Below the pieces are notes generated by a model. The model saw nothing but the letters and a program-made list of their open reading frames with translations. It was not told where the DNA came from and did no database searches. A stretch of 64,000 bases of DNA from assembly GCF_000010665.1 (NCBI RefSeq), contig NC_012796.1, positions 2,509,501 to 2,573,500 on the forward strand. The letters are read 5' to 3'. Positions 23,898 through 36,108 of the stretch are shown piece by piece (the first letter of the stretch is position 1; each line of letters begins with the position of its first letter). Made by a program: the position numbers and the translations under genes. Source of the stretch: Solidesulfovibrio magneticus RS-1 (GTDB lineage: Bacteria; Desulfobacterota; Desulfovibrionia; Desulfovibrionales; Desulfovibrionaceae).

Positions 23898-24878
23898 ATG
23901 AGCAAAATTCTCGATCAGGACGAAGTCGATGCGCTGCTTCGGGGGTTATCCGGCGGCGAGATCGAAGCGGAAAACGACATTCTGGAGGACGACTCCGGGG
24001 TCGTGGTCTTCGACCTGTCCAACCAGGACCGCATCATCCGCGGCCGGATGCCGGTTCTGGAAATCATCAACGACCGCTTCGCCCGCCTGGCCTCCAACGC
24101 CATGGCCAACGCCATGCGCAAGCGCGCCGACGTCAACCCCATTTCCATCGACATGTCCAAGTTCGGGGACTTCATGCGCTCCCTGCCCGTCCCCACCTCC
24201 ATCAACATCTTCAAGCTCGATCCGCTGCGCGGCAACGCCATCCTCGTTGTCGACTCCAGGCTGGTATTCGCCATGGTGGAGAGCTTTTTCGGCGGGGCCG
24301 GCTCCCAGCCCAAGATCGAGGGCCGGGATTTCACCCCTATCGAGCAGGCCATCATCAACCGAGTGGTGCGCATCGCCCTGGAAAACATGGAGGAATCCTG
24401 GCAGCCCGTTCACGAGGTCCACATCGAACTCGTGCGCAGCGAGGTCAATCCCCAGTTCGCGGCCATCGTGCCGCCAAGCGATGTCGTGGTCGTCGTGACC
24501 TTCGAGGTCGAACTCGAAAACGCCATCGGCTCGCTCATCGTCTGCCTGCCCTACGCCACCATCGAGCCCATCCGCTCCAAGCTCTACGCCTCGTTCCAGA
24601 CCGAACGCCTGGAAGTGGACCATGCCTGGATCGCCCGGTTCAAGGAACGGCTCATGGAAACGCCCGTGGAACTCCTCGTGCGCTTTGGCCGCTCCCAGAT
24701 CACCGGCCGCCAGTTGTTGTCGCTCAAGCCCGGGGACATCCTCATGCTCGAAAACGACGTGGACGAACTGCTGGAAGCCGAGATCCAGGGCGTTCGCAAG
24801 TTCCAGGGCATCCCGGGCCTGGTCAAGTCCAACAAGGCCTTCCAGATCGTCAAGGAAGAAGAGATTCGTCTCGAATAG
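23898..24878 (+). CDS. fliM: Flagellar motor switch protein FliM
   Basis: FliM is the C-ring protein that binds phospho-CheY and sets the rotation direction. The 326-residue protein begins with the CheY-binding helix ILDQDEVDALLRGL, followed by the CheC-like middle domain and the C-terminal FliN-like domain (VELLVRFGRSQITGRQLLSLKPGDILML, split here by the residue limit only in description). No other structural flagellar genes are adjacent, so this is an isolated copy. Confidence 0.97.
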   Translation: MSKILDQDEVDALLRGLSGGEIEAENDILEDDSGVVVFDLSNQDRIIRGRMPVLEIINDRFARLASNAMANAMRKRADVNPISIDMSKFGDFMRSLPVPTSINIFKLDPLRGNAILVVDSRLVFAMVESFFGGAGSQPKIEGRDFTPIEQAIINRVVRIALENMEESWQPVHEVHIELVRSEVNPQFAAIVPPSDVVVVVTFEVELENAIGSLIVCLPYATIEPIRSKLYASFQTERLEVDHAWIARFKERLMETPVELLVRFGRSQITGRQLLSLKPGDILMLENDVDELLEAEIQGVRKFQGIPGLVKSNKAFQIVKEEEIRLE

Positions 24879-24944
24879 CTTGGCTACACTTTTTTGTGTA
24901 TCGACAACTACTTCCAATAGTTCATTTTTTCACAAACATTGCAA

Positions 24945-25733
24945 ATGCGTCATGGTCACACCCTTGCGACCGTGATAGTTTCCCGTCTCGTGGAACCGCA
25001 AACCCTGGCTCTGTCCATCCTGCCCCAGCCCGATGACGCCACCTGCGGGCCGACCTGCCTGCACGCCGTCTACGGCTACTACGGCGACCACCTCCCTCTG
25101 GAGGACGTCATCGCCGAGGCTCCCACCCTGCCCGACGGCGGGACGCTTGGGGCCTATCTCGGCTGCCATGCCCTGCGGCGGGGCTACAAGGCCAAGCTCT
25201 ACACCTTCGATCTCTCGGTCTTTGACGTCACCTGGTTCGCCCAGGACGTCGATCTGGCCGCCAAGCTGACCGAACAGTTGGTCGTCAAGACCGGCCGCCG
25301 TCTGCATCAGGCCTCGGCCGCCTATCTGGAATTCCTGCGCCTGGGCGGCCAGATTCGTTTTGAAGACCTGACCGCTCCGCTTATTCGCGACATCTTGAAG
25401 CGCGGCCGGCCCATCCTGGCCGGCTTGTCCGCCACCTATCTCTACCGCACCCCGCGCGAGCGCGACGTGGCCGGCAAGACCGTGTTCGACGATCTGCGCG
25501 GCAAGCCGTCCGGGCATTTCGTGGTGATAAACGGCTACGATTCCTCGGCCCGCGTCACCCATATCGCCGATCCGCTCCTGCCCAATCCCATCAGCCGCAG
25601 CCAATACTACGAGGTGACGCTCAATCATCTGGTCTGCGCCGTCATGCTTGGCGTCATCACCGACGACGCCAATCTGCTCGTGCTTTCGCCTCGAAAGAAA
25701 AGCCGGTCCGAGGACCGGCAAAGGAGTCTCTAG
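24945..25733 (+). CDS. Papain-like (C39-type) peptidase-fold protein of the amide-ligase cluster
   Basis: A protein of about 262 residues with the Cys motif DDATCGPTCLHAVYGYYGD near the N-terminus and the matching His motif GHFVVINGYD (about residues 190-199), then Asp in THIADPLLP, the order expected of a C39/papain-like catalytic triad. There is no signal peptide or membrane segment, so it probably acts in the cytoplasm. The start is uncertain (ATG 24945; TTG 24939 and a later GTG are alternatives). Its stop overlaps the GTG of the RimK-type ligase (TAGTG), so the two are co-translated. Substrate unknown; it may cleave or transfer the product of the ligases. Confidence 0.8.
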   Translation: MRHGHTLATVIVSRLVEPQTLALSILPQPDDATCGPTCLHAVYGYYGDHLPLEDVIAEAPTLPDGGTLGAYLGCHALRRGYKAKLYTFDLSVFDVTWFAQDVDLAAKLTEQLVVKTGRRLHQASAAYLEFLRLGGQIRFEDLTAPLIRDILKRGRPILAGLSATYLYRTPRERDVAGKTVFDDLRGKPSGHFVVINGYDSSARVTHIADPLLPNPISRSQYYEVTLNHLVCAVMLGVITDDANLLVLSPRKKSRSEDRQRSL

Positions 25734-27202
25734 TGTCTGTTTTGGTGATCATGGAAAACCCCGAGGACTGTTCCCTGGTGTTTTCCGGCGTCGAACCCGT
25801 CGCCGCCCGCAGCTATCTGGCCGACGAGGCCTTCACCGCCCTGCGCGGGGTCAAGATCATCAACCTCTGCCGTTCCTTCCGCTACCAATCCATGGGCTAT
25901 TACGTGTCGCTTCTGGCCGAAGCCCGGGGCCACAAGCCCATCCCGTCCATCACGGCCATCCAGGACATGAAGTCCGTGGGCATCATCCGGCTGGCCTCGG
26001 AAGAACTGGCCGAACTCCTGGAACGGGCCCTGGCCGACAGGCCGCAGGAAAAAATAAGCTTCTCGGCCTATTTCGGCAAAACGCCGGAAAAAGGCCTGGA
26101 ACAGCTCGCCTCGCGGCTGTTCAAGCTCTTTCCCACGCCGTTTCTGCGGGCCGACTGCAACTGGCAAAACGGCTGGCAGCTCCAAAACGTCTCGCCTCTG
26201 CCTCTGCGCGACATCCCCGAGGAAGAGCGCGACTTTGCCGAGGCCGTGTCCACCGACTACTTCACCGGCAAAAAGCTCACCATCCCCAAGCGCCAAGTGA
26301 GCCGCTACGATCTGGCCATCCTCCACGACCCCGAGGAGGAACGCCCGCCTTCCGACGCCCGGGCCATCAAGCGCTTCGTCAAGGCCGCCGAGAACCTTGG
26401 CCTTGGCGTGGAGATCATCACCCGCGAGGATTCCAACCGCCTGTCGGAGTTCGACGCGCTGTTCATCCGCGAAACCACCAACGTCGATCACCACACCTAC
26501 CGCATGGCCCGCAAGGCGGCGGCCGAAGGGCTGGTGGTCATCGACGACCCGGAATCCATCCTGCGTTGCTCCAACAAGGTCTATCTGGCCGAGGTGCTGT
26601 CGCGCCTGAAAATTCCGGCCCCCCGCACGGTTATCGCCCATTGCAAGAATATCGACCATATCCTGGAAGAGCTGCCCCTGCCCTGCGTGCTCAAGCAGCC
26701 CGACAGCGCCTTTTCCCAGGGCGTGGTGCTGGTGCGCGAATCCGACGCGCTCATGCAGGAGGCCAAGCGGCTTTTGTCCAAGTCCGATCTGGTCATCGCC
26801 CAGGAGTATCTGCCCTCGGAATACGACTGGCGCATCGGGGTGCTGGACAAGCGGCCGCTTTTTGCCTGCAAGTACTACATGGCCTCGGGCCATTGGCAGA
26901 TCCTGCGCAAGGGCAAGTCCGGCAAGGACGTCTACGGCCGGGTGGAAACCCTGCCCGTGGCCAAGGCCCCCAAGAAGGTGGTCAACACGGCGCTCAAGGC
27001 GGCGGCGGCCATCGGCGACGGGCTTTACGGCGTGGATCTCAAGCAGGTGGGCGACAAGGTCTACGTCATCGAGGTCAACGACAACCCCAACATCGACGCC
27101 GGCTTCGAGGACGAGGTGCTGCAGGACGAACTCTATTTGCGCGTGGTGGAAGTCTTTCTCAAACGCATCGAACGCCGCAAAACCGGGAGCCTCAACGTAT
27201 GA
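25733..27202 (+). CDS. RimK-family ATP-grasp ligase with N-terminal RLAN-type domain
   Basis: A 489-residue predicted carboxylate-amine ligase. Residues 1 to about 180 form an N-terminal region of the kind attached to RimK homologues, and residues about 195-480 are ATP-grasp: LPCVLKQPDSAFSQGV, YDWRIGVLDKRPLFACKYYM, and the metal/ATP site YVIEVNDNPNIDAGFED. RimK enzymes add glutamate or other amino acids to a protein or small acceptor. The GTG start overlaps the previous stop, with AAAGGAG upstream; the stop overlaps the next ATG (ATGA). It is the core enzyme of the cluster, and its acceptor is unknown. Confidence 0.9.
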   Translation: MSVLVIMENPEDCSLVFSGVEPVAARSYLADEAFTALRGVKIINLCRSFRYQSMGYYVSLLAEARGHKPIPSITAIQDMKSVGIIRLASEELAELLERALADRPQEKISFSAYFGKTPEKGLEQLASRLFKLFPTPFLRADCNWQNGWQLQNVSPLPLRDIPEEERDFAEAVSTDYFTGKKLTIPKRQVSRYDLAILHDPEEERPPSDARAIKRFVKAAENLGLGVEIITREDSNRLSEFDALFIRETTNVDHHTYRMARKAAAEGLVVIDDPESILRCSNKVYLAEVLSRLKIPAPRTVIAHCKNIDHILEELPLPCVLKQPDSAFSQGVVLVRESDALMQEAKRLLSKSDLVIAQEYLPSEYDWRIGVLDKRPLFACKYYMASGHWQILRKGKSGKDVYGRVETLPVAKAPKKVVNTALKAAAAIGDGLYGVDLKQVGDKVYVIEVNDNPNIDAGFEDEVLQDELYLRVVEVFLKRIERRKTGSLNV

Positions 27203-28464
27203 GCAAAGCCAGACATCTCTTCTCCGCTTTCGGCATTGAGATCGAATATATGATCGTTGACCGCGAAACCTTGGCGGTCCGGCCCATCGCCGACAAGCTG
27301 CTGGCCGCCGCCGGCGGCGTTCCGGACGCCAGCGACGTCGAACTGGGGCCGGTTACCTGGTCCAACGAACTGGTGGCCCATGTGCTGGAGATGAAGGTTA
27401 GCAAGCCCGCCAAGACCTTGAAGGGTCTGGCCGCCGCCTTTGCCGCCAGCGTGGCCAAAGCCGAGGAACTGCTGGCTCCCCACGGCGCGCGCCTGCTCCC
27501 CACCGGCGCCCATCCCCTCATGGACCCCTTCACGGAAACCGTGCTGTGGCCCCACGAGAGCAGCGAAATCTACAAGGCGTTCGACGCCATCTTCAATTGC
27601 AAGGGACATGGCTGGGCCAATCTGCAAAGCATGCACATCAACCTGCCTTTTGCCGGCGACGACGAGTTCGGCCGGCTCCATGCCGCCATTCGCGTGCTCA
27701 TGCCCATCATGCCGGCCCTGGCCGCCTCCACGCCCATCCTCGACGGCAAGGCCACGCCTTGGCTCGATGCACGGATGCGCCACTACGCCCACAACGCCGA
27801 CCGGGTGCCGGCAGTTATGGGCGCGGTGATCCCGGAAGCCGTTTTTTCCATCGACGAATACCACGCGCGCATTCTGGAGCCGCTCTACCGCGACATCGCC
27901 CCCCTGGACCCCAAGGGGGTGCTTCGCGGCGATTTCCTCAACGCCCGTGGGGCCATCCCGCGTTTCGAGCGCTCCACCATCGAAATCCGGGTGCTGGACA
28001 CCCAGGAATGCCCGGCCGCCGACTTTGCCCTGGCCGACGTCGTGGTCTCGGCCCTCAAGGGGCTGGTGGAGGAACGCTGGTCCACCTATGAGGAGCAAAA
28101 AGCCTGGGCCACAAGCGAGCTGGCCACGATATTTAACGCCACCATCGAAAACGCCGGCCGGGCCAAGGTGCCCGACGAATACGCGCGCCTTTTCGGCGTC
28201 TACGCCCCGTCCTGGATTCCGGCCCGGGTCATCTGGCGGCGGCTGGCCATGAGTTCGTTGCCGACCATGGACTTCGATCCCGACTGGGAAAAAGCTCTGG
28301 CCGTGCTGGTCGACCAGTCGAGCCTGGCCCGGCGCATCCTGGCCGCCGTGGACGGCGACTGCCGGCCAACGAACATTCGGCGCGTCTACGGCCAACTGGC
28401 CGACTGCCTGGAGAAAAACGAGCCCTTCAATGTCGGCATCCTGGGCGCTCCTTATTACCTGTGA
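27199..28464 (+). CDS. GCS2-type glutamate-cysteine ligase-like carboxylate-amine ligase
   Basis: A 421-residue protein of the glutamine-synthetase-fold GCS2 group: FGIEIEYMIVD near the start, THSMH-like SMHINLPFAGDDEF and the C-terminal-half FERSTIEIRVLDTQECP. Family members join the gamma-carboxyl of glutamate to an amine (for example cysteine), but members in RimK-type clusters often have other substrates. It starts within the preceding stop (ATGA) and its last 35 bases overlap the next gene. Confidence 0.88.
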   Translation: MSKARHLFSAFGIEIEYMIVDRETLAVRPIADKLLAAAGGVPDASDVELGPVTWSNELVAHVLEMKVSKPAKTLKGLAAAFAASVAKAEELLAPHGARLLPTGAHPLMDPFTETVLWPHESSEIYKAFDAIFNCKGHGWANLQSMHINLPFAGDDEFGRLHAAIRVLMPIMPALAASTPILDGKATPWLDARMRHYAHNADRVPAVMGAVIPEAVFSIDEYHARILEPLYRDIAPLDPKGVLRGDFLNARGAIPRFERSTIEIRVLDTQECPAADFALADVVVSALKGLVEERWSTYEEQKAWATSELATIFNATIENAGRAKVPDEYARLFGVYAPSWIPARVIWRRLAMSSLPTMDFDPDWEKALAVLVDQSSLARRILAAVDGDCRPTNIRRVYGQLADCLEKNEPFNVGILGAPYYL

Positions 28465-29146
28465 GCACGGCGGGGCCGACATCCCCGCCGCCTATGCCCC
28501 GCTGTTTGACGGCTGGCGCGACGCCCTGGCCAGCCACCGGGGGCACGACTTCGGCGCGCTGTCAACGGCCCGGAGGCTCGCCCGGGCCGTTGACAGCGCG
28601 CCGCTGCTCTTTTCCACAACCAGCCGGATGCTCGTGGACCTAAACCGTTCGCTTGGGCATCCCGGGCTTTTTTCCGAGGCAACCAAGGGCCTGCCGCGCC
28701 GGGACAAGGACGCCATCCTCGCCCGATACTACCACCCTCACCGCGACGCCGTGGCCGCCGTGGTCGCCGAGGGGATTGCGGCTGACCGCACGGTGCTGCA
28801 CATCGCCAGCCACAGCTTCACCCCGCGCCTTCGCGGCGTCACCCGCCACTGCGATGTGGGCTTTCTCTACGACCCCGGGCGCAGCGCCGAAAAGGATTTT
28901 TGCCGCAACTGGCTGCGCGAGCTGGCCTGCCTGGACGGCGACCTGATCCTGCGGCGCAACTACCCCTACAAAGGCGTGTCCGACGGGATGGTCACAGCCT
29001 TTCGCCGCCGTTTCGGCGAGCGCTATCTGGGCGTGGAGCTGGAAGTGAACCAGCGCTTCGCCCTGGGTGGAGACGAAGCACTGGGGAGTATCAGCGAGAC
29101 GTTGGCCGATGCGCTGCAGCGGGCGCTTGGGCGCACGGCATCCTGA
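28430..29146 (+). CDS. N-formylglutamate amidohydrolase family protein
   Basis: A 238-residue zinc hydrolase of the HutG-like N-formylglutamate amidohydrolase family, with CEHGGADIPAAY at the start, DFGALSTARRLA, VDLNRS and HIASHSFTPRL in the expected order. Family members hydrolyse amide bonds to glutamate. The ATG at 28430 lies inside the previous gene (35-base overlap), and the frame opens directly at the conserved LLITCEHGG. In this cluster it may process a formylated or acylated glutamyl product rather than serve histidine breakdown, as no hut genes are near. Confidence 0.88.
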   Translation: MSASWALLITCEHGGADIPAAYAPLFDGWRDALASHRGHDFGALSTARRLARAVDSAPLLFSTTSRMLVDLNRSLGHPGLFSEATKGLPRRDKDAILARYYHPHRDAVAAVVAEGIAADRTVLHIASHSFTPRLRGVTRHCDVGFLYDPGRSAEKDFCRNWLRELACLDGDLILRRNYPYKGVSDGMVTAFRRRFGERYLGVELEVNQRFALGGDEALGSISETLADALQRALGRTAS

Positions 29147-29395: not shown

Positions 29396-31099
29396 ATGCC
29401 CGCCCCTTTTTCCGTGCCCGATATCCTGGGCTCCCTTGAGCGGCCGGTCTTGGCCGTGGACGCCGACGGCCGGGTGGCCAACGCCAACCCCGCCGCGCTT
29501 TCCATGTTCGGCCCCGAGGTGGCCACGCCCGGCGCGGCTCTGCCTCTGGCCCGGCCCGACCTGTGGCAGCCCATGGCCAAATGCCTGGCCGAGGGCGACG
29601 TGGTCTATGATCGCCTCAATGTTGGCTCCAAGACCGTGGTCGCCACCACCTTTCCCATCTGCCGCGACGGCCGGGTGGTCGGGGCCACCTGCATCTGCCG
29701 CCCCTGCGCCGGCGAAGCCCATCCGGCCATGGAAGGCCGCTTGGGGGCCATACTTGATTCCGTGTCCGACGGCATCTGGATCTGCGACGGCACGGGAACC
29801 ATCCTTTCGATCAACGCCGCTTCCGAGCGGCTCAATTCCGTCAACGCCGAGGACTACGTCGGGAAAAATGTCTCCTTGATCGTGGCCCAGCGCATGGTCG
29901 ACCGCTCGGCCACCCTGGACGTGCTCGAAACCAAACGCCAGTCGAGCATGATCCAGCACATCACCAAGACCGGCAAACAGCTCTTGGTCACGGCCACACC
30001 GGTCCTTGGCGACCAGGGCGAGGTGGCCCTGGTGGTGGTCAACGAGCGCGATGTGACGGAATTGCAAAATCTGCGGCAGGGGCTTCAAAACGCCCGCAAG
30101 GTCGAGGAGCGCTACCGCAGCGAACTGGCCGAGTTGTCGCTTTTCGAGCTTTCCCAGAAGGATATCGTGGCCCAAAGCGGGCAAATGCAGCGTACCTTGC
30201 GCACGCTGTTAAAGCTCGCCCAGATGGACGCCTCGCGGGTTTTGCTTCTTGGCGAATCCGGCACCGGCAAGGGTCTGCTCGCCAAATTCCTGCACCAGGT
30301 CAGCCCCCGTTCGCCCAAGCCGTTTATTCAGATCAACTGTCCGGCCGTGCCGGAAAACCTGTTCGAGGCCGAACTTTTTGGCTATGAAAAAGGGGCCTTT
30401 ACCGGCGCGCGCGAGGCCGGCAAGGCGGGGTTGATCGAATTGGCCGCCGGGGGCACGCTCTTTCTCGACGAGGTGGGCGACATCCCCTTGGGCATCCAGG
30501 CCAAGCTGCTCAAATACCTCGACGACCACGAACTGCGCCGCCTGGGCGGGGCCGAGGCCCGCACCGTGGAATGCCGGGTGGTGGCGGCCACCAACTGCGA
30601 CCTGGAAGGCCTGGTCGAGCGCCGCCAGTTCCGCACCGACCTCTATTATCGCCTCAACACCTTCGTGGTGCGCATCGCCCCCCTGCGCGAGCGTCGCGAA
30701 GACATCTTCGGCCTGGCCGAATTCTACCTGGCCCAGCAAAACGCCCGCCATGGCAAGGCCAAACGCCTCTCGGCCCGGGCCATGCGCCAGCTCGAAGCCT
30801 ACGCCTTTCCCGGCAACGTCCGGGAACTCGTCAGCATCATCCAGAAAGCCTTTGTCATGAGCGACGACGACGACCTCACCGACGCGCTCATTGAGGCCCT
30901 GGCCGGCGACGCGCCGCCAGCGGTGGACACGCCGTCCGGCCCCCGTCCCCTGGCCGATTCCACCGAGCAAACGGCCATCCGGCGTCTGCGCGAGGCCATG
31001 GCCGCCTGCCGCACCACCCGGGAGATGGCCGCCCACCTTGGGGTGAGCCAGGCCACGGTGGTGCGCAAGCTCAAGCGTTACGGCCTTTCCCGCTCCTGA
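29396..31099 (+). CDS. PAS-containing sigma-54-dependent transcriptional activator
   Basis: A 567-residue enhancer-binding protein. An N-terminal sensor region has a PAS-like segment (about 1-105) and a second PAS (about 113-225, ending VVNERDVTEL). The AAA+ core has Walker A GESGTGKG (286-293), the sigma-54 contact GAFTGA (333-338) and Walker B TLFLDEVGD. The C-terminal helix-turn-helix (AAHLGVSQATVVRKLKRY, about 547-564) binds DNA. It has no receiver domain, so it probably senses a metabolite directly. It sits just upstream of an aminotransferase operon with dyad sites and a -24/-12 promoter. Confidence 0.94.
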   Translation: MPAPFSVPDILGSLERPVLAVDADGRVANANPAALSMFGPEVATPGAALPLARPDLWQPMAKCLAEGDVVYDRLNVGSKTVVATTFPICRDGRVVGATCICRPCAGEAHPAMEGRLGAILDSVSDGIWICDGTGTILSINAASERLNSVNAEDYVGKNVSLIVAQRMVDRSATLDVLETKRQSSMIQHITKTGKQLLVTATPVLGDQGEVALVVVNERDVTELQNLRQGLQNARKVEERYRSELAELSLFELSQKDIVAQSGQMQRTLRTLLKLAQMDASRVLLLGESGTGKGLLAKFLHQVSPRSPKPFIQINCPAVPENLFEAELFGYEKGAFTGAREAGKAGLIELAAGGTLFLDEVGDIPLGIQAKLLKYLDDHELRRLGGAEARTVECRVVAATNCDLEGLVERRQFRTDLYYRLNTFVVRIAPLRERREDIFGLAEFYLAQQNARHGKAKRLSARAMRQLEAYAFPGNVRELVSIIQKAFVMSDDDDLTDALIEALAGDAPPAVDTPSGPRPLADSTEQTAIRRLREAMAACRTTREMAAHLGVSQATVVRKLKRYGLSRS

Positions 31100-31130
31100 T
31101 TCACTTCTGCATCAGCCGTTTGCGGCCAGG

Positions 31131-31162
31131 ACCGGGATAAACGTTTTTTCGTTTTATCCGGT
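31131..31162 (+). terminator. Stem-loop after the sigma-54 activator gene
   Basis: Arms ACCGGGATAAACG (31131-31143) and CGTTTTATCCGGT (31150-31162) pair with single-base bulges around a T6 loop. The position 31 bases after the stop fits a transcript end, but a clear T-tail is lacking. Confidence 0.4.
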
Positions 31163-31269
31163 TTGGCGGCTTATTGCCTATCATTTGGGATTCTCACGTG
31201 ATTGACGCTTTCTGACGGAAAGGGCCGAGGAACACGCTTGGCGTTTCCGGCCGTGTCCGTGGCGGAAAA

Positions 31270-31292
31270 TGCTGATTCAGCTTGATTCAGCA
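31270..31292 (+). promoter_or_regulatory. Dyad site, candidate activator binding site 1
   Basis: TGCTGA (31270-31275) and TCAGCA (31287-31292) are inverted, and within them GCTGATTCAGC (31271-31281) is itself a perfect odd palindrome followed by a direct repeat TGATTCAGC. The core TGATTC recurs in the site at 31342. It lies about 130-155 bases upstream of the -24/-12 promoter, a normal enhancer position for a sigma-54 activator. Confidence 0.55.
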
Positions 31293-31341
31293 TCTTGTCT
31301 CACAGCATTATTTTGGATTTATTGATTTTTAACATTTTTGC

Positions 31342-31359
31342 TGATTCACAATAGAATCA
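31342..31359 (+). promoter_or_regulatory. Dyad site, candidate activator binding site 2
   Basis: TGATTC (31342-31347), six bases, GAATCA (31354-31359): an inverted repeat sharing the TGATTC core with the site at 31270. It lies about 65-80 bases upstream of the -24 element. The bases between are very A/T-rich, as expected for DNA bending. Confidence 0.55.
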
Positions 31360-31422
31360 CAGTCTCGTAGCCAAATTCGTCATATGACTTATAATACATT
31401 GATATATTTTAACATACAAACT

Positions 31423-31438
31423 CGGTCCGCTTCTTGCT
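31423..31438 (+). promoter_or_regulatory. Candidate sigma-54 (-24/-12) promoter
   Basis: CGGTCCGCTTCTTGCT has GG and GC separated by exactly ten bases and a perfect -12 element TTGCT; the -24 element (CGGTCC against TGGCAC) is weaker. It lies about 78 bases before the GTG of the aminotransferase gene, downstream of two dyad sites and next to a sigma-54 activator gene. Confidence 0.6.
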
Positions 31439-31515
31439 GAGAAGGCAGCTTGCCAACTGTGTGCATTTTAGTACGAGGCACTTACGCCACCACCTGAAAC
31501 ATCCGAGGATGATCC

Positions 31516-32841
31516 GTGAACACCACCGACAAGGCGCAGGAACTGCAAGCATTGCGTGATCGCTATGTCCCCAAGGGGCATCCCAACGCCACGCCCTTTT
31601 TCGTCGAATCCGCCAAGGGCGCCCTGCTTCGCGACGTCACCGGACGCGAGTTCATCGATTTCGTCGGCGGCATCGGCGTGTTAAACGTCGGCCACTGCCA
31701 CCCCAAGGTCGTCGCCGCCGTCAAGGATCAGGCCGGACGCTATCTCCACACCTGCTCCATGGTCACCATGTACGAGCCCTACGTCCAGCTCGCCGCCCGC
31801 CTGTCCGAGGCCGCCCCGGGCGACTTCGAGAAAAAGGCGATGTTCGTCAACAGCGGCTCCGAAGCCGTGGAAAACGCCGTGAAGATCGCTCGTTGCCACA
31901 CCGGCCGGGCCGGCGTCGTGTCCATGAAAAACGCCTTCCACGGCCGCACCCTGCTGGCCATGTCCCTAACCAGCAAGGTCAAGCCCTACAAATTCGGCTT
32001 CGGCCCCCTGGCCCCGGAAGTCTACCAGTACCCCAACTACGCCTACTGCTACCGTTGCCCCCTGGGCCTGACCTATCCCAAGTGCGGCGTGGCCTGCGCC
32101 GACAAGCTGCGCGAATTCTTCATCGCCACCGCCGCCGCCGAGAACATCGCCTGCATCATCGCCGAGCCGGTCCAGGGCGAAGGCGGCTTCGTGGTTCCGC
32201 CCAAGGAATTCTTCGAGAAGCTGCGCGCCATCTGCGACGAATACGGCATCGTCTTTATCGCCGACGAAATCCAGTCCGGCTTTGGCCGCACCTCCAAGCT
32301 CTTTGCCATGGAGCACTTCGGCGTGGCCCCGGACCTCATGACCGTGGCCAAATCCATGGGCGGCGGCCTGCCCCTGGCCGGCGTGGTCGGCAAGGCCGAG
32401 ATCATGGATGCCGTGGCCCCGGGCGGCATCGGCGGCACCTACGGCGGCAACCCGCTGGCCTGCCGCGCCGGCCTGGCCGTCATGGACATCTTCGAACAAG
32501 ACAACCTGCTGGCCAAGGCCGAGCGCCTGGGCAACGTGGTCAAGCGCCGGTTTGCCGCGTTTAAAAAACAGTACCAGCTCATCGGCGACGAGCGCGGCCT
32601 TGGAGCCATGCGCGCCCTGGAATTCGTCTCCGACCGCGCCACCAAGGCCCCCTGCCCCGAGGCGGCCAAGGGCGTGGCCAAGTTCTGCCAGGACAACGGC
32701 CTGCTCGTGTTGTCCTGCGGCAACTTCGGCAACTGCATCCGGGTGCTCATGCCGCTGGTCATCACCCGTGACCAGCTCGACCGCGGCCTGGACATTATGG
32801 AAGAAGGCATCCGCGAGGTCTCCAAAAGCCTCGGCAAATAA
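31516..32841 (+). CDS. Class III (GabT-like) PLP-dependent aminotransferase
   Basis: A 441-residue fold-type I transaminase. It has SGSEAVENAVKIAR (pyridoxal-phosphate phosphate cradle), AFHGRTLLAMSLT, the Asp of FIADEIQSGFGR and the PLP Lys in MTVAKSMGGGLPLAGVVG. It resembles 4-aminobutyrate aminotransferase and related omega-amino-acid transaminases, giving a semialdehyde. A Cys cluster around YAYCYRCPLGLTYPKCGVAC is typical of a GabT subgroup. The start is the GTG at 31516 with CGAGG upstream. It heads the operon with transporter and AOR genes. Exact substrate unknown. Confidence 0.88.
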   Translation: MNTTDKAQELQALRDRYVPKGHPNATPFFVESAKGALLRDVTGREFIDFVGGIGVLNVGHCHPKVVAAVKDQAGRYLHTCSMVTMYEPYVQLAARLSEAAPGDFEKKAMFVNSGSEAVENAVKIARCHTGRAGVVSMKNAFHGRTLLAMSLTSKVKPYKFGFGPLAPEVYQYPNYAYCYRCPLGLTYPKCGVACADKLREFFIATAAAENIACIIAEPVQGEGGFVVPPKEFFEKLRAICDEYGIVFIADEIQSGFGRTSKLFAMEHFGVAPDLMTVAKSMGGGLPLAGVVGKAEIMDAVAPGGIGGTYGGNPLACRAGLAVMDIFEQDNLLAKAERLGNVVKRRFAAFKKQYQLIGDERGLGAMRALEFVSDRATKAPCPEAAKGVAKFCQDNGLLVLSCGNFGNCIRVLMPLVITRDQLDRGLDIMEEGIREVSKSLGK

Positions 32842-32890
32842 CGGCAACAAGGCCCGACCCAGCCAACCGACAACGTAAAGAGGTGCAGGC

Positions 32891-34138
32891 ATGAAAAACG
32901 GTTCCATCACGACGATTCTGGCCGGCTGCATGGGCATGGCCCTGTCCGCCGCCCTGTTCGCCGCTCCGGCCCTGGCCGCCGACAAGACCGTCAAGATCGG
33001 CAACGTCGAGCCCCTGTCCGGTCCGTCGGCCTCGGTCGGCGTCCAGGGCAAGCAGGCCCGGGAAATGGCCATCGAGGAGATCAACGCCGCCGGCGGCATC
33101 AAGTCCCTGGGCGGCGCCAAGCTGGAGCTGGTCTACGCCGACAGCAAGTCCGACCCCACCGTCGGCGTCACCGAGACCGAGCGCCTTATCAACACCGAAA
33201 AAGTCAACCTCATGACCGGCTGCTGGAACTCCGCCGTCACCTACCCGGCCACCCAGGTGGCCGAGCGCTACGGCATCCCCTTCGTGGTGCCCGTGGCCGT
33301 GCGCGACACCATCACCGAGCGCGGATTTAAAAACGTCTTCCGCATCGCTGCCAAGGACTCCTGGTGGGTGCGCGACCAGTTCCGTTTCCTCAAAGATATG
33401 CAGGAAGAAACCGGCGTGAAGCTGCAAAAGATCGCCTTTGTCTTTGAAAACGGCGACTGGGGCACCGGCTTTGCCGAGAAGTGGCGCGAACTGGCCAAGA
33501 AAGACGGCTACGAGGTCGTCCTCGACGAACCCTATCCCAGCACCGCCACCGACCTCACCCCGGTGGTGACCAAGCTCAAGGCCGCCAAGCCTGACATCGT
33601 CATGCTGGTGTCCAACGCCGCCGACGCCATCCTTTTGACCAACACCATGGCCGAAATGCAGGTCAAGCCCAAGGTCGTCCTGGCCAGCGGCGGCGGCCAC
33701 GCCGATCCCAAGTTCCTGGAAAACACCGACACCAACGCCCTGGGCATCTTTGACGAAGTCGAGTGGAACACCGACGTCAACAAGCCCGCCGCCAAGCCGG
33801 CCAACGAGAAGTTCAAGAAGAAGTACGGCTACGACCTGACCGGCGAGTCCGTTGACGCCTACGTCGCCATGTATGTCATCGCCGACGCCCTGGAACGCGC
33901 CGCCTCCACCGAGCCGGCCAAGATCCGCGACGCCCTGGCCGCCACCAACCTGACCACCGGACCGGGCATGGTCGTCTCCTACGACGGCGTCCAGTTCGAC
34001 GAGACCGGCCAGAACAAGAACGCCGGCATCGTCATCGTCCAGGTGGCCAACGTGGACGGCAAGCCCGACCGCGTCACCGTGTGGCCCAAGGCCGCCCGCC
34101 GCGCCGGGTACGTCCCGGCCTTCCCGGCCAACAAGTAG
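32891..34138 (+). CDS. Liv-type ABC transporter substrate-binding protein (second system)
   Basis: A 415-residue periplasmic binding protein. Signal peptide to about residue 30 (AAPALA cleavage), then KTVKIGNVEPLSGPSASVGVQGKQ and EINAAGGIKSLGGAKLE. It is a distinct paralogue of the protein at 11088, with WNSAVTYPATQVAERYGIPFVVP typical of the amide/urea/short-chain group of this family. The ligand is probably the substrate of the aminotransferase encoded 49 bases upstream. Confidence 0.9.
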   Translation: MKNGSITTILAGCMGMALSAALFAAPALAADKTVKIGNVEPLSGPSASVGVQGKQAREMAIEEINAAGGIKSLGGAKLELVYADSKSDPTVGVTETERLINTEKVNLMTGCWNSAVTYPATQVAERYGIPFVVPVAVRDTITERGFKNVFRIAAKDSWWVRDQFRFLKDMQEETGVKLQKIAFVFENGDWGTGFAEKWRELAKKDGYEVVLDEPYPSTATDLTPVVTKLKAAKPDIVMLVSNAADAILLTNTMAEMQVKPKVVLASGGGHADPKFLENTDTNALGIFDEVEWNTDVNKPAAKPANEKFKKKYGYDLTGESVDAYVAMYVIADALERAASTEPAKIRDALAATNLTTGPGMVVSYDGVQFDETGQNKNAGIVIVQVANVDGKPDRVTVWPKAARRAGYVPAFPANK

Positions 34139-34155
34139 TAACACGTTGCAGTAAC

Positions 34156-34184
34156 GCCCCGGACCGGCCTTTCCGGTCCGGGGC
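34156..34184 (+). promoter_or_regulatory. Intercistronic hairpin after the binding-protein gene
   Basis: A perfect 12-bp stem, GCCCCGGACCGG (34156-34167) with CCGGTCCGGGGC (34173-34184), and no T-tract. It probably protects the upstream message or causes partial termination, so more binding protein than permease is made. Confidence 0.65.
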
Positions 34185-34205
34185 AAACGTCCGGAGAGGC
34201 TTTTC

Positions 34206-35090
34206 ATGACCGCGGTGATTCAGGCGGCGCTCAACGGCGCCATGATGGGAGCCATGTACGGGCTGACCGCCCTCGGATTGACCCTGATCTTCGGGGTCAT
34301 GAAGGTGGTCAACTTCGCCCACGGCTCACTGCTCATGGTTGGCATGTTCAGCGCATATTGGCTGATTCGACTCACGGGCATCCACCCGTATCTGGCCCTT
34401 GTCATCGTACCGCCCGTCCTGTTCGTTTTCGGCTATTATCTGCAGGACGTGGTCATCAAACCCGTGTTCAAAGCCGAAGGCCAGGTGCGCGAACCGTTGA
34501 CGGTCATCATCGTCACCACCGGCGTCTGGTACGTCCTTGACAACCTGGCGCTCATGCTGTTTGGCGCCGAGTACCGCACCGTGCGCACGGCCATTTCCAA
34601 CAAGTCCTTCGCGCTTGGCGAATTCATCATCTCCATCCCCAAATTTTCCGGCTTCGTGGTGGCCGTCGCCACGGCCGTCGGCCTTGCCCTTTTTATGCGC
34701 AAAACCAAAACCGGCAAAGCCCTTCGCGCCACCAGCCTGGACCGCGAAGCGGCCAACCTCATGGGCATCAACCAGTACCGCATCTACAACATCGCCTTCG
34801 GCCTCGGCACGGCCATCGCCGGCATCGCGGGCTGCGTGCTCATCCCCTTTTACTACGTCTACCCTTCGGTTGGCGTGGTCTTCGACATCCGGGCGTTTAT
34901 CATCGTCGTGCTTGGCGGCCTGGGCAGCATTCCCGGTGCGCTCCTTGGCGGCTTGGTCATCGGCCTGATCGAGTCCGTCTTCTCCCAGTTCATGGCCTCC
35001 ACCTGGACCGAAGCCATCATCTACGCCATCTTCCTCATCATTCTCTTCGTCAAACCATCCGGCTTCTTCGGCCACAAACAGGATTGGTAG
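34206..35090 (+). CDS. Liv-type ABC transporter permease (LivH-like, second system)
   Basis: A 294-residue membrane permease with the LivH motifs GLTLIFGVMKVVNFAHGSL and GKALRATSLDREAANLMGIN and about eight membrane helices. A good GGAGAGG site precedes the ATG. It is followed 10 bases later by its LivM-like partner. Confidence 0.94.
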   Translation: MTAVIQAALNGAMMGAMYGLTALGLTLIFGVMKVVNFAHGSLLMVGMFSAYWLIRLTGIHPYLALVIVPPVLFVFGYYLQDVVIKPVFKAEGQVREPLTVIIVTTGVWYVLDNLALMLFGAEYRTVRTAISNKSFALGEFIISIPKFSGFVVAVATAVGLALFMRKTKTGKALRATSLDREAANLMGINQYRIYNIAFGLGTAIAGIAGCVLIPFYYVYPSVGVVFDIRAFIIVVLGGLGSIPGALLGGLVIGLIESVFSQFMASTWTEAIIYAIFLIILFVKPSGFFGHKQDW

Positions 35091-35100
35091 GAGGCGCGCC

Positions 35101-36108
35101 GTGAGCCGAAAACAACTCGACCGGATATTGCTGGCAGTGGTTGCCCTGGCCGCCTTCGGGCTGCCCCTGGTGGTGACCTCGCCCACCTATCTGCAAATCC
35201 TCATCCTGCTCTTTTTCTACGCCTATCTGACCACGGCCTGGAACCTGGTCGGTGGTTTCGCCGGCGTGTTGCCCTTGGGGCATTCCGTTTTCGTCGGCAT
35301 CGGGGCCTACACCTCCTCGATCCTGACCCTGCAGTATGGCGTGTCGCCCTGGATCGGCATGCTGGTCGGCGGAGCCATCGCCGCCGTCATCGGCGTCATC
35401 ATCGGCCTGCCCACCTTCCGGATGCGCGGGGCCTACTTCTGTCTGTGCACCATCGCCTTTGCCGAAGGCATCCGGGTCATGGTGGAAAACATCGACACCT
35501 TGGGACCGCTCAAAATAAACGGCCCCCGGGGCCTGCTCGTGCCGCTGCTCAAGGACCCGACGTTCTGGGACTACCAGTTCATGTCCAAGCTGCCGTACTA
35601 TTACATCATCTTGGTGCTTCTGATCCTGGTCCTGGCCTTTACCTGGTTCGTCTCACGCTCCAAGATCGGCTACTATCTGGCCGCCGGCGGCGAAGAACCC
35701 GACGCCGCCGCCGCTCTGGGCATCAACGTGGCCAACTACAAGCTCTTCGCCATGGCCCTGTCCTGCTTCCTGACCGCCCTGGCCGGCACGTTCTACGCCC
35801 AGCTCATGCTCTACTTCTATCCCAAGGGCCTCATGGGCCTGGATCTCTCCTTCGAGATCGCGTTTATCGCGCTCATCGGCGGCCGGGGTACCATCGCCGG
35901 CCCGGTCATCGGCGCGCTGCTCTTGCGACCGCTTAATGAATTCACCCGCATCTACTTAAGCGACATGCTGCCCGGGCTGCATCTGGTCATCTTCGGGCTC
36001 ATCCTCATCCTGGTCATGATCTACCTGCCCAAGGGTCTCACCGCGCCACTGGCCGCCCTTTATGACCGGCTGGCCCGCAAAATCACCGGCCAGGGAGCAG
36101 CGAAATGA
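35101..36108 (+). CDS. Liv-type ABC transporter permease (LivM-like, second system)
   Basis: A 335-residue permease with about nine membrane segments and the LivM-type coupling region SKIGYYLAAGGEEPDAAAALGIN. The GTG start has GGAGG upstream. Its stop overlaps the next ATG (ATGA). Confidence 0.93.
   Translation: MSRKQLDRILLAVVALAAFGLPLVVTSPTYLQILILLFFYAYLTTAWNLVGGFAGVLPLGHSVFVGIGAYTSSILTLQYGVSPWIGMLVGGAIAAVIGVIIGLPTFRMRGAYFCLCTIAFAEGIRVMVENIDTLGPLKINGPRGLLVPLLKDPTFWDYQFMSKLPYYYIILVLLILVLAFTWFVSRSKIGYYLAAGGEEPDAAAALGINVANYKLFAMALSCFLTALAGTFYAQLMLYFYPKGLMGLDLSFEIAFIALIGGRGTIAGPVIGALLLRPLNEFTRIYLSDMLPGLHLVIFGLILILVMIYLPKGLTAPLAALYDRLARKITGQGAAK

Follow-up and report, generated by a model that had tools for sequence, protein, structure and literature searches.

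A conserved amide-ligase cassette

What do two carboxylate-amine ligases, a papain-fold enzyme and a glutamate-amide hydrolase do together? The question is raised by four consecutive genes of Solidesulfovibrio magneticus RS-1, located in a stretch of 64,000 nucleotides (contig NC_012796.1, positions 2,509,501 to 2,573,500) that was analysed as a whole and is called the window here. The genes encode a C39-like enzyme, an RLAN-RimK ligase, a GCS2-family ligase and an N-formylglutamate-amidohydrolase-like (FGase) hydrolase. They represent a real, deeply conserved operon, C39-RimK-GCS2(-FGase), and very probably form one pathway. In window coordinates the genes are:

24990..25733, + strand, C39-like papain-fold enzyme (Pfam PF13529, E 4.9e-9; PF03412, E 4.4e-6)
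25733..27202, + strand, RLAN-RimK ATP-grasp carboxylate-amine ligase (Pfam PF14401 RLAN, E 7.8e-47; PF08443, E 1.4e-9)
27199..28464, + strand, GCS2-family carboxylate-amine ligase (Pfam PF04107, E 3e-27)
28430..29146, + strand, FGase hydrolase (Pfam PF05013, E 6.5e-21)

The initial annotation of this locus had described four overlapping genes, and this was confirmed by the overlaps of 1, 4 and 35 bases and by the Pfam matches of each product. The RLAN-RimK gene starts with the GTG within TAGTG, the GCS2 gene is joined to it by ATGA, and the GCS2 and FGase genes share 35 bases. The extra N-terminal region that had been noticed on the RimK-type ligase is real and corresponds to the Pfam RLAN domain (residues about 1-179, window 25733-26269), which precedes the ATP-grasp part (about 190-489). 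For the C39-like gene, which stops at 25733, the in-frame start options are TTG at 24939, ATG at 24945 and 24951, and GTG at 24990; its N-terminus is doubtful, as the alignment with homologues begins only near residues 13-19 counted from ATG 24951. The scanned genome (5,315,620 bases, three contigs) contained one RLAN, one GCS2 and two FGase matches. The second FGase-family match was weaker and distant from the cassette (C2:4118374-4118661).

A collection with one genome per species was scanned with the RLAN-RimK protein, which gave at least 578 relatives, and the best 80 loci were kept; as these are by construction the most window-like loci, the counts are not a census. C39, RimK and GCS2 were present in window order at 71 of the 80 loci (12 named phyla) and all four genes at 47 (10 named phyla), and all detected core genes were on the RimK strand. 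By gene content, the remaining loci contained C39-RimK-GCS2 (24), C39-RimK (3), RimK-GCS2-FGase (2) or RimK alone (4), and several absent genes were due to contig ends (e.g. L093, L102, L103, L124 and L128). At locus L120 the FGase gene was 4.6 kb away from the cassette. The 80 rows carried 14 NCBI phylum labels, with five rows unassigned; the labels were given by the submitters, and the identity of some bins is questionable. Isolates among them include Nitrosomonas, Thiobacillus thioparus, Pontibacter ruber, Rufibacter glacialis and Desulfosediminicola. Intergenic distances were short: the C39-RimK gap had a median of -3 and a maximum of 62 bases (n = 74), and the gap was at most 20 bases in 67/73 loci for RimK-GCS2 and in 45/49 for GCS2-FGase, with overlaps overstated because starts were taken as the first possible codon. 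Pairwise distances correlated at 0.79-0.86 among C39, RimK and GCS2 and at 0.65-0.71 with FGase (45 rows; these values include shared descent).

Within the window's class, RLAN was detected in 38 of 199 sampled genomes, the window's own included, and the other 37 loci were read. Twenty of these contained C39-RimK-GCS2 in window order on one strand; FGase was present at 16 of the 20, and one of the four loci without it, L052, ends at a contig edge. The gene fliM adjoins the cassette solely in the nine same-genus loci, and the cassette is placed elsewhere in other genera. More generally, flanking genes vary while the cassette persists, and immediate neighbours belonged to one family at no more than 3/78 loci upstream and 2/72 downstream. 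Chance is far from sufficient to explain the linkage, given that unrelated genomes repeat both the gene order and the shared strand; such a recurrence had been named beforehand as the test for a system. Since the order is kept across 12 named phyla while the flanks change, the cassette very likely does something generally useful. Matches were found in 47 of 72,556 plasmid records, 11 of them at 80% coverage, and in nine of 50,697 phage records, none at 80% coverage.

Conserved residues, which are presumably catalytic, were followed in alignments from which proteins shorter than 80% of the window protein's length had been dropped. In the C39-like enzyme (numbered from ATG 24951), Gln26, Cys32, His189 and Asp207 were kept in 74/74 rows (the window and 73 of the 74 C39-bearing loci). 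The ATP-grasp part of RLAN-RimK kept Lys321, Glu447 and Asn449 in 81/81 rows (the window and the 80 loci). In GCS2, with the window as one row, His146 and Arg264 were present in 71/71 rows and Asn56, Glu57 and Glu64 in 70/71. Glu12, His13, Arg66, His128, Glu203 and Glu205 of FGase were present in 48/48 rows (the window and 47 of the 49 FGase-bearing loci).

FGase as an accessory gene

Fifteen of the 24 C39-RimK-GCS2 loci without FGase were checked genome-wide. In thirteen cases the genome lacks this type of FGase altogether, from which we regard FGase as accessory; the other two, both named Nitrosomonas communis, carry it elsewhere. Among the 109 GCS2-type rows of the tree (79 with FGase, 30 without) its presence requires a minimum of 17 changes, a number inflated by loci cut by contig ends, which were scored as lacking FGase. 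Scattering of the four genes in related genomes would have spoken against a single system; C39, RimK and GCS2 stay together, whereas FGase is partly scattered. The claim that the four genes are one system is partly supported: the C39-RimK-GCS2 core keeps its order in many unrelated genomes, but FGase is accessory, RimK occurs alone at 4/80 loci and two loci have no C39. For one of these two, L104, a C39 gene is present elsewhere in the genome, and for L076, where the locus lacks GCS2, two such genes are encoded at other places in the genome.

Family membership of the four proteins

Both domains of the RLAN-RimK protein scored above their curated cut-offs (PF14401, 159.1 bits, cut-off 25; PF08443, 38.2 bits, cut-off 21). 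A papain-like partner gene, which we take to be usual for the RLAN-RimK family, adjoins RimK here and in 74/80 of the nearest loci, in the form of C39. The GCS2 protein remained under the cut-off for all eight NCBIfam families that it matched, the best being TIGR02050 (54.7 bits, cut-off 176.4), and its profile had no match in the PDB at 0.01. For FGase no NCBIfam match was obtained at E 0.1, and the sole PDB sequence match was 2odf, 'hypothetical protein Atu2144'.

Several established labels were tried and rejected. For ribosomal protein S6 glutamate ligase and S6 glutamylation, the ligase scored 69.4 bits to TIGR00768 (cut-off 143.4) and 23.5 bits to NF007764 (cut-off 331). Glutathione synthesis and histidine breakdown, the two known roles that had been raised as refutations of a system, were not supported: GCS2 scored 21.1 bits to the cyanobacterial GshA model TIGR02048 (cut-off 249), and histidine ammonia-lyase (PF00221) is absent from the genome, which also removes the histidine-utilisation (HutG) label from FGase. 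GshA of the PF04262 type was not found in the genome either; one GSH-S_ATP (PF02955) match was found elsewhere in it (C2:2018411, 27.9 bits, cut-off 23). The ergothioneine label failed with 16.4 bits of GCS2 to EgtA (TIGR03444, cut-off 370.8), and synthesis of the osmolyte N-acetylglutaminylglutamine amide failed in that the window protein did not match TIGR03103 at E 0.1.

GNAT in the place of GCS2

A second sample of 369 genomes was drawn from the class to which a Nitrosomonas genome belongs. RLAN was detected in 81 of them and 80 of the 81 loci were read, which together with the 37 loci of the window's class gave 117. Most Nitrosomonas-class loci contained a GNAT acyltransferase, either with C39 (52) or without it (7). 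C39-GCS2 with FGase was present at 13 loci and without FGase at one, and the rest had GCS2 alone (1), C39 alone (2) or RimK only (4). At 51 of the loci with both GNAT and C39 the two form one fusion (scored at 25 bits), an example of which matched PF11814 and Acetyltransf_1. In the window's class a GNAT-RLAN-RimK fusion was found at 17/37 loci (L044, L050 and L056-L070; e.g. L050:7639-10251). One family of neighbouring genes recurs at 15 of these 17 fusion loci, and Pfam identifies one of its members as a SET-domain protein.

With a GNAT limit of 60 bits, GNAT and GCS2 occurred together at 0/117 loci (0/80 and 0/37). Fisher values for the exclusion were 8e-12 and 6e-11, with descent ignored. 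All 78 FGase-bearing loci also have GCS2, and none of 76 GNAT loci has FGase (the underlying sets overlap in at least four loci). The alternation of GNAT and GCS2 may be no more than one partner exchange, or perhaps two, that was long retained. An M20 family was present near 15 of the 63 loci without type-A partners; the one member scanned was an acetylornithine deacetylase, and these neighbours may be just arginine genes.

Predicted structure of the RLAN domain

The model of the RLAN-RimK protein had a predicted local distance difference test (pLDDT) score of 89.1 and a predicted template modelling (pTM) score of 0.62, and the latter leaves the domain arrangement unsure. RLAN modelled alone reached a pLDDT of 94.7 and a pTM of 0.88. 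In Foldseek searches the best solved matches of the whole model were RimK (5zct, 7qys), ArgX and LysX, including complexes with RpsF or LysW. RLAN alone matched LysX/ArgX loosely (best E 2.9e-5; query TM 0.52-0.60 for those in the first ten; root-mean-square deviation above 8), and a viral structure library gave weak matches, several of them named ATP-grasp. At the sequence level, hhalign did not connect RLAN with the ATP-grasp half (probability 2.1), and the RLAN profile matched only ribosomal protein S12 in the PDB (E 0.02). As a lead only, the models suggest that RLAN could be a shortened, degenerate ATP-grasp unit.

Proposed function and alternatives

We tentatively favour a cytoplasmic cassette that would cap, ligate, process and uncap a small glutamyl peptide, a reading that we consider quite possible. 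We infer every reaction, substrate and direction in this scheme, and its cytoplasmic place from the cofactors. GCS2 would use ATP to place a cap, glutamyl or similar, on an amine, and RLAN-RimK, again with ATP, would couple the carboxylate of the substrate so capped to an amine or amino acid. The C39-like enzyme, with its Gln-Cys-His-Asp set intact, would then cleave or transfer the product, and FGase, if present, would hydrolyse an N-acyl-glutamate bond and so remove the cap or recycle the product. In relatives a GNAT acyltransferase would provide the cap in place of GCS2. The amine-capping role of GCS2 is suggested by the N-acyltransferase that takes its place in relatives, and action of FGase on a glutamyl cap by its occurrence only with GCS2. 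The initial annotation had counted two amide-forming and two amide-breaking enzymes; the C39-like enzyme might instead act as a transferase and not break amides. A broader version, in which a GCS2-capped, FGase-uncapped form and a GNAT-capped form are interchangeable variants of a widespread small-peptide pathway centred on RLAN-RimK, with RLAN possibly a degenerate ATP-grasp unit, appears doubtful to us.

The conserved and tightly packed gene order, the persistence of the cassette amid varying flanks, the correlated distances and the GNAT/GCS2 alternation count in favour of the scheme. So does a gene with the class II glutamine-amidotransferase fold, which adjoins the cassette at five of the 80 loci, in two arrangements:

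L096:7205-8095, EgtC-like gene
L115:7299-8321, EgtC-like gene
L135:7289-8131, EgtC-like gene
L127:12429-13541, EgtC-like gene
L132:12433-13491, EgtC-like gene

EgtC breaks a gamma-glutamyl amide in ergothioneine synthesis. Two of these genes were scanned against EgtC and fell slightly short of its cut-off of 218.65, with 201 and 203 bits. EgtB and EgtD were not recognised beside the five genes, as judged by eye from sequence beginnings with no profile run.

Several observations weigh against the capped-peptide scheme. No gene for a substrate, product, transporter or acceptor was widely common beside the cassette at the 80 loci among neighbours of at least 60 residues. RimK was present without C39 and GCS2 in 4/80 genomes (L116, L134, L136 and L086), neither partner being found genome-wide in these drafts and bins, which may be incomplete; RimK can thus persist alone and may act alone. 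No C39 was found anywhere in the L109 genome. The GNAT/GCS2 label needs only two changes on a tree of 196 RimK proteins, so the alternation is little independent evidence. At 25 bits, a separate GNAT-like open reading frame lies within 6 kb of the GCS2-type loci L047, L049 and L051 (of the 37) and L138 (of the other 80); one count at this limit gave GNAT with GCS2 at 3/117 loci. The stricter limit of 60 bits removes the GNAT label from all four. Finally, the EgtC-like gene is missing at 75/80 loci, and the window genome has only two short, weak matches of that family.

The alternative that survives best is modification of a protein, which we judge rather unlikely. Here RLAN-RimK would extend the C-terminus or a side chain of a protein with residues resembling glutamate, in the manner of RimK on ribosomal protein S6, GCS2 would branch or cap the tail, and C39 and FGase would trim it. 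The nearest solved structures, RimK and ArgX/LysX, some of them in complex with RpsF or LysW, are consistent with this, and RLAN could bind the acceptor. RimK-RimB pairs, too, unite a ligase and a peptidase (PMC12239564). Against it stand the score of the ATP-grasp part to the RimK family TIGR00768 (69 bits, cut-off 143) and the neighbourhoods. A common fifth gene was not found among neighbours of at least 60 residues, shorter open reading frames not being examined: the largest neighbour family occurred at 6/80 loci, and these families rest on gene calls with an early GCS2 model polluted by antisense open reading frames. The small acceptor protein that had been envisaged beside the cassette therefore did not appear in this size range, under which a LysW-sized carrier would fall. 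LysW has about 54 residues.

A low-molecular-weight thiol or phytochelatin-like pathway is quite improbable. GCS2 would form gamma-Glu-Cys, RLAN-RimK would correspond to glutathione synthetase and the papain-like enzyme to phytochelatin synthase. This fold-by-fold parallel is joined by 53 bits of RLAN-RimK to a glutathione synthetase model, below its cut-off of 408, and by the lack of PF04262 GshA in a genome where the cassette GCS2 is the sole PF04107 match. The scores of GCS2 to cyanobacterial GshA (21 bits, cut-off 249) and EgtA (16 bits, cut-off 371) and the separate GSH-S_ATP match argue against such a pathway, which moreover has no place for FGase or the GNAT alternative. Maturation of a graspetide or another ribosomal peptide, whose precursor would be very short and whose leader C39 would remove, is very unlikely: leaders of the double-glycine type are cleaved by C39 peptidases, graspetides are cyclised by ATP-grasp enzymes (PMC8939145), and the graspetide ligases PsnB and MdnB/C were among the weaker Foldseek matches, but intergenic gaps are too short for a precursor at most loci and no neighbour of at least 60 residues is widely common, smaller open reading frames not being searched.

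Relation to known systems

Iyer et al. reportedly noted RLAN-RimK neighbourhoods with GNAT-papain proteins and with GCS2 in their 2009 amidoligase survey (doi 10.1039/b917682a), and the neighbours given in the Pfam entry for RLAN reportedly comprise GCS2, M20 peptidases and fusions of GNAT with papain. This kind of system has thus probably already been predicted in print, and as to kind the initial term 'undescribed system' went too far. Measured here were the four-gene form with FGase and how widely it is spread, the dispensability of FGase, and the alternation of GNAT with GCS2. Among the papers listed in the literature searches, which left out most subscription papers, none reported experiments on an RLAN protein or on this set of genes.

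The GNAT-papain RLAN-RimK neighbourhoods (PF14401, PF11814) resemble the cassette in their RLAN-RimK ligase and papain-like partner and differ by GNAT, which in the window is replaced by GCS2 and an optional FGase. The papain-like DUF3335 (PF11814) domains are often fused to GNAT (PMC10318531, citing Iyer 2009). RimK-RimB S6 polyglutamylation likewise pairs a RimK-type ATP-grasp ligase (folds 5zct and 7qys) with a peptidase (PMC12239564); the cassette adds RLAN, GCS2 and FGase, and has C39 instead of a retropepsin. The LysX/ArgX carrier-protein ligases resemble the full RLAN-RimK model in structure and, more weakly, RLAN alone. Their pathway is not known to contain RLAN, C39, GCS2 or FGase. 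N-acetylglutaminylglutamine synthetase (TIGR03103) unites a GNAT and an ATP-grasp part in a single chain, as do the GNAT-RLAN-RimK fusions found in some relatives, but a fusion relative scored only 18 bits to it (cut-off 569), with the GNAT part alone matched.

The GNAT/GCS2 alternation and the optional FGase lead to direct predictions of the bond made or broken by each enzyme. As the cassette comprises just three or four small enzymes, it lends itself to reconstitution in vitro or in E. coli, with mass spectrometry to identify what it makes.

Flanking genes in the window

The cassette is flanked by:

23898-24878, fliM, upstream
29396-31099, sigma-54 activator gene with PAS (Pfam), downstream

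In the downstream region (29396-36108) Pfam was applied to the activator alone and the remaining genes were read by eye. The PAS sigma-54 activator is followed there by an aminotransferase-like gene and by apparent branched-chain amino-acid ATP-binding cassette (ABC) transporter genes.

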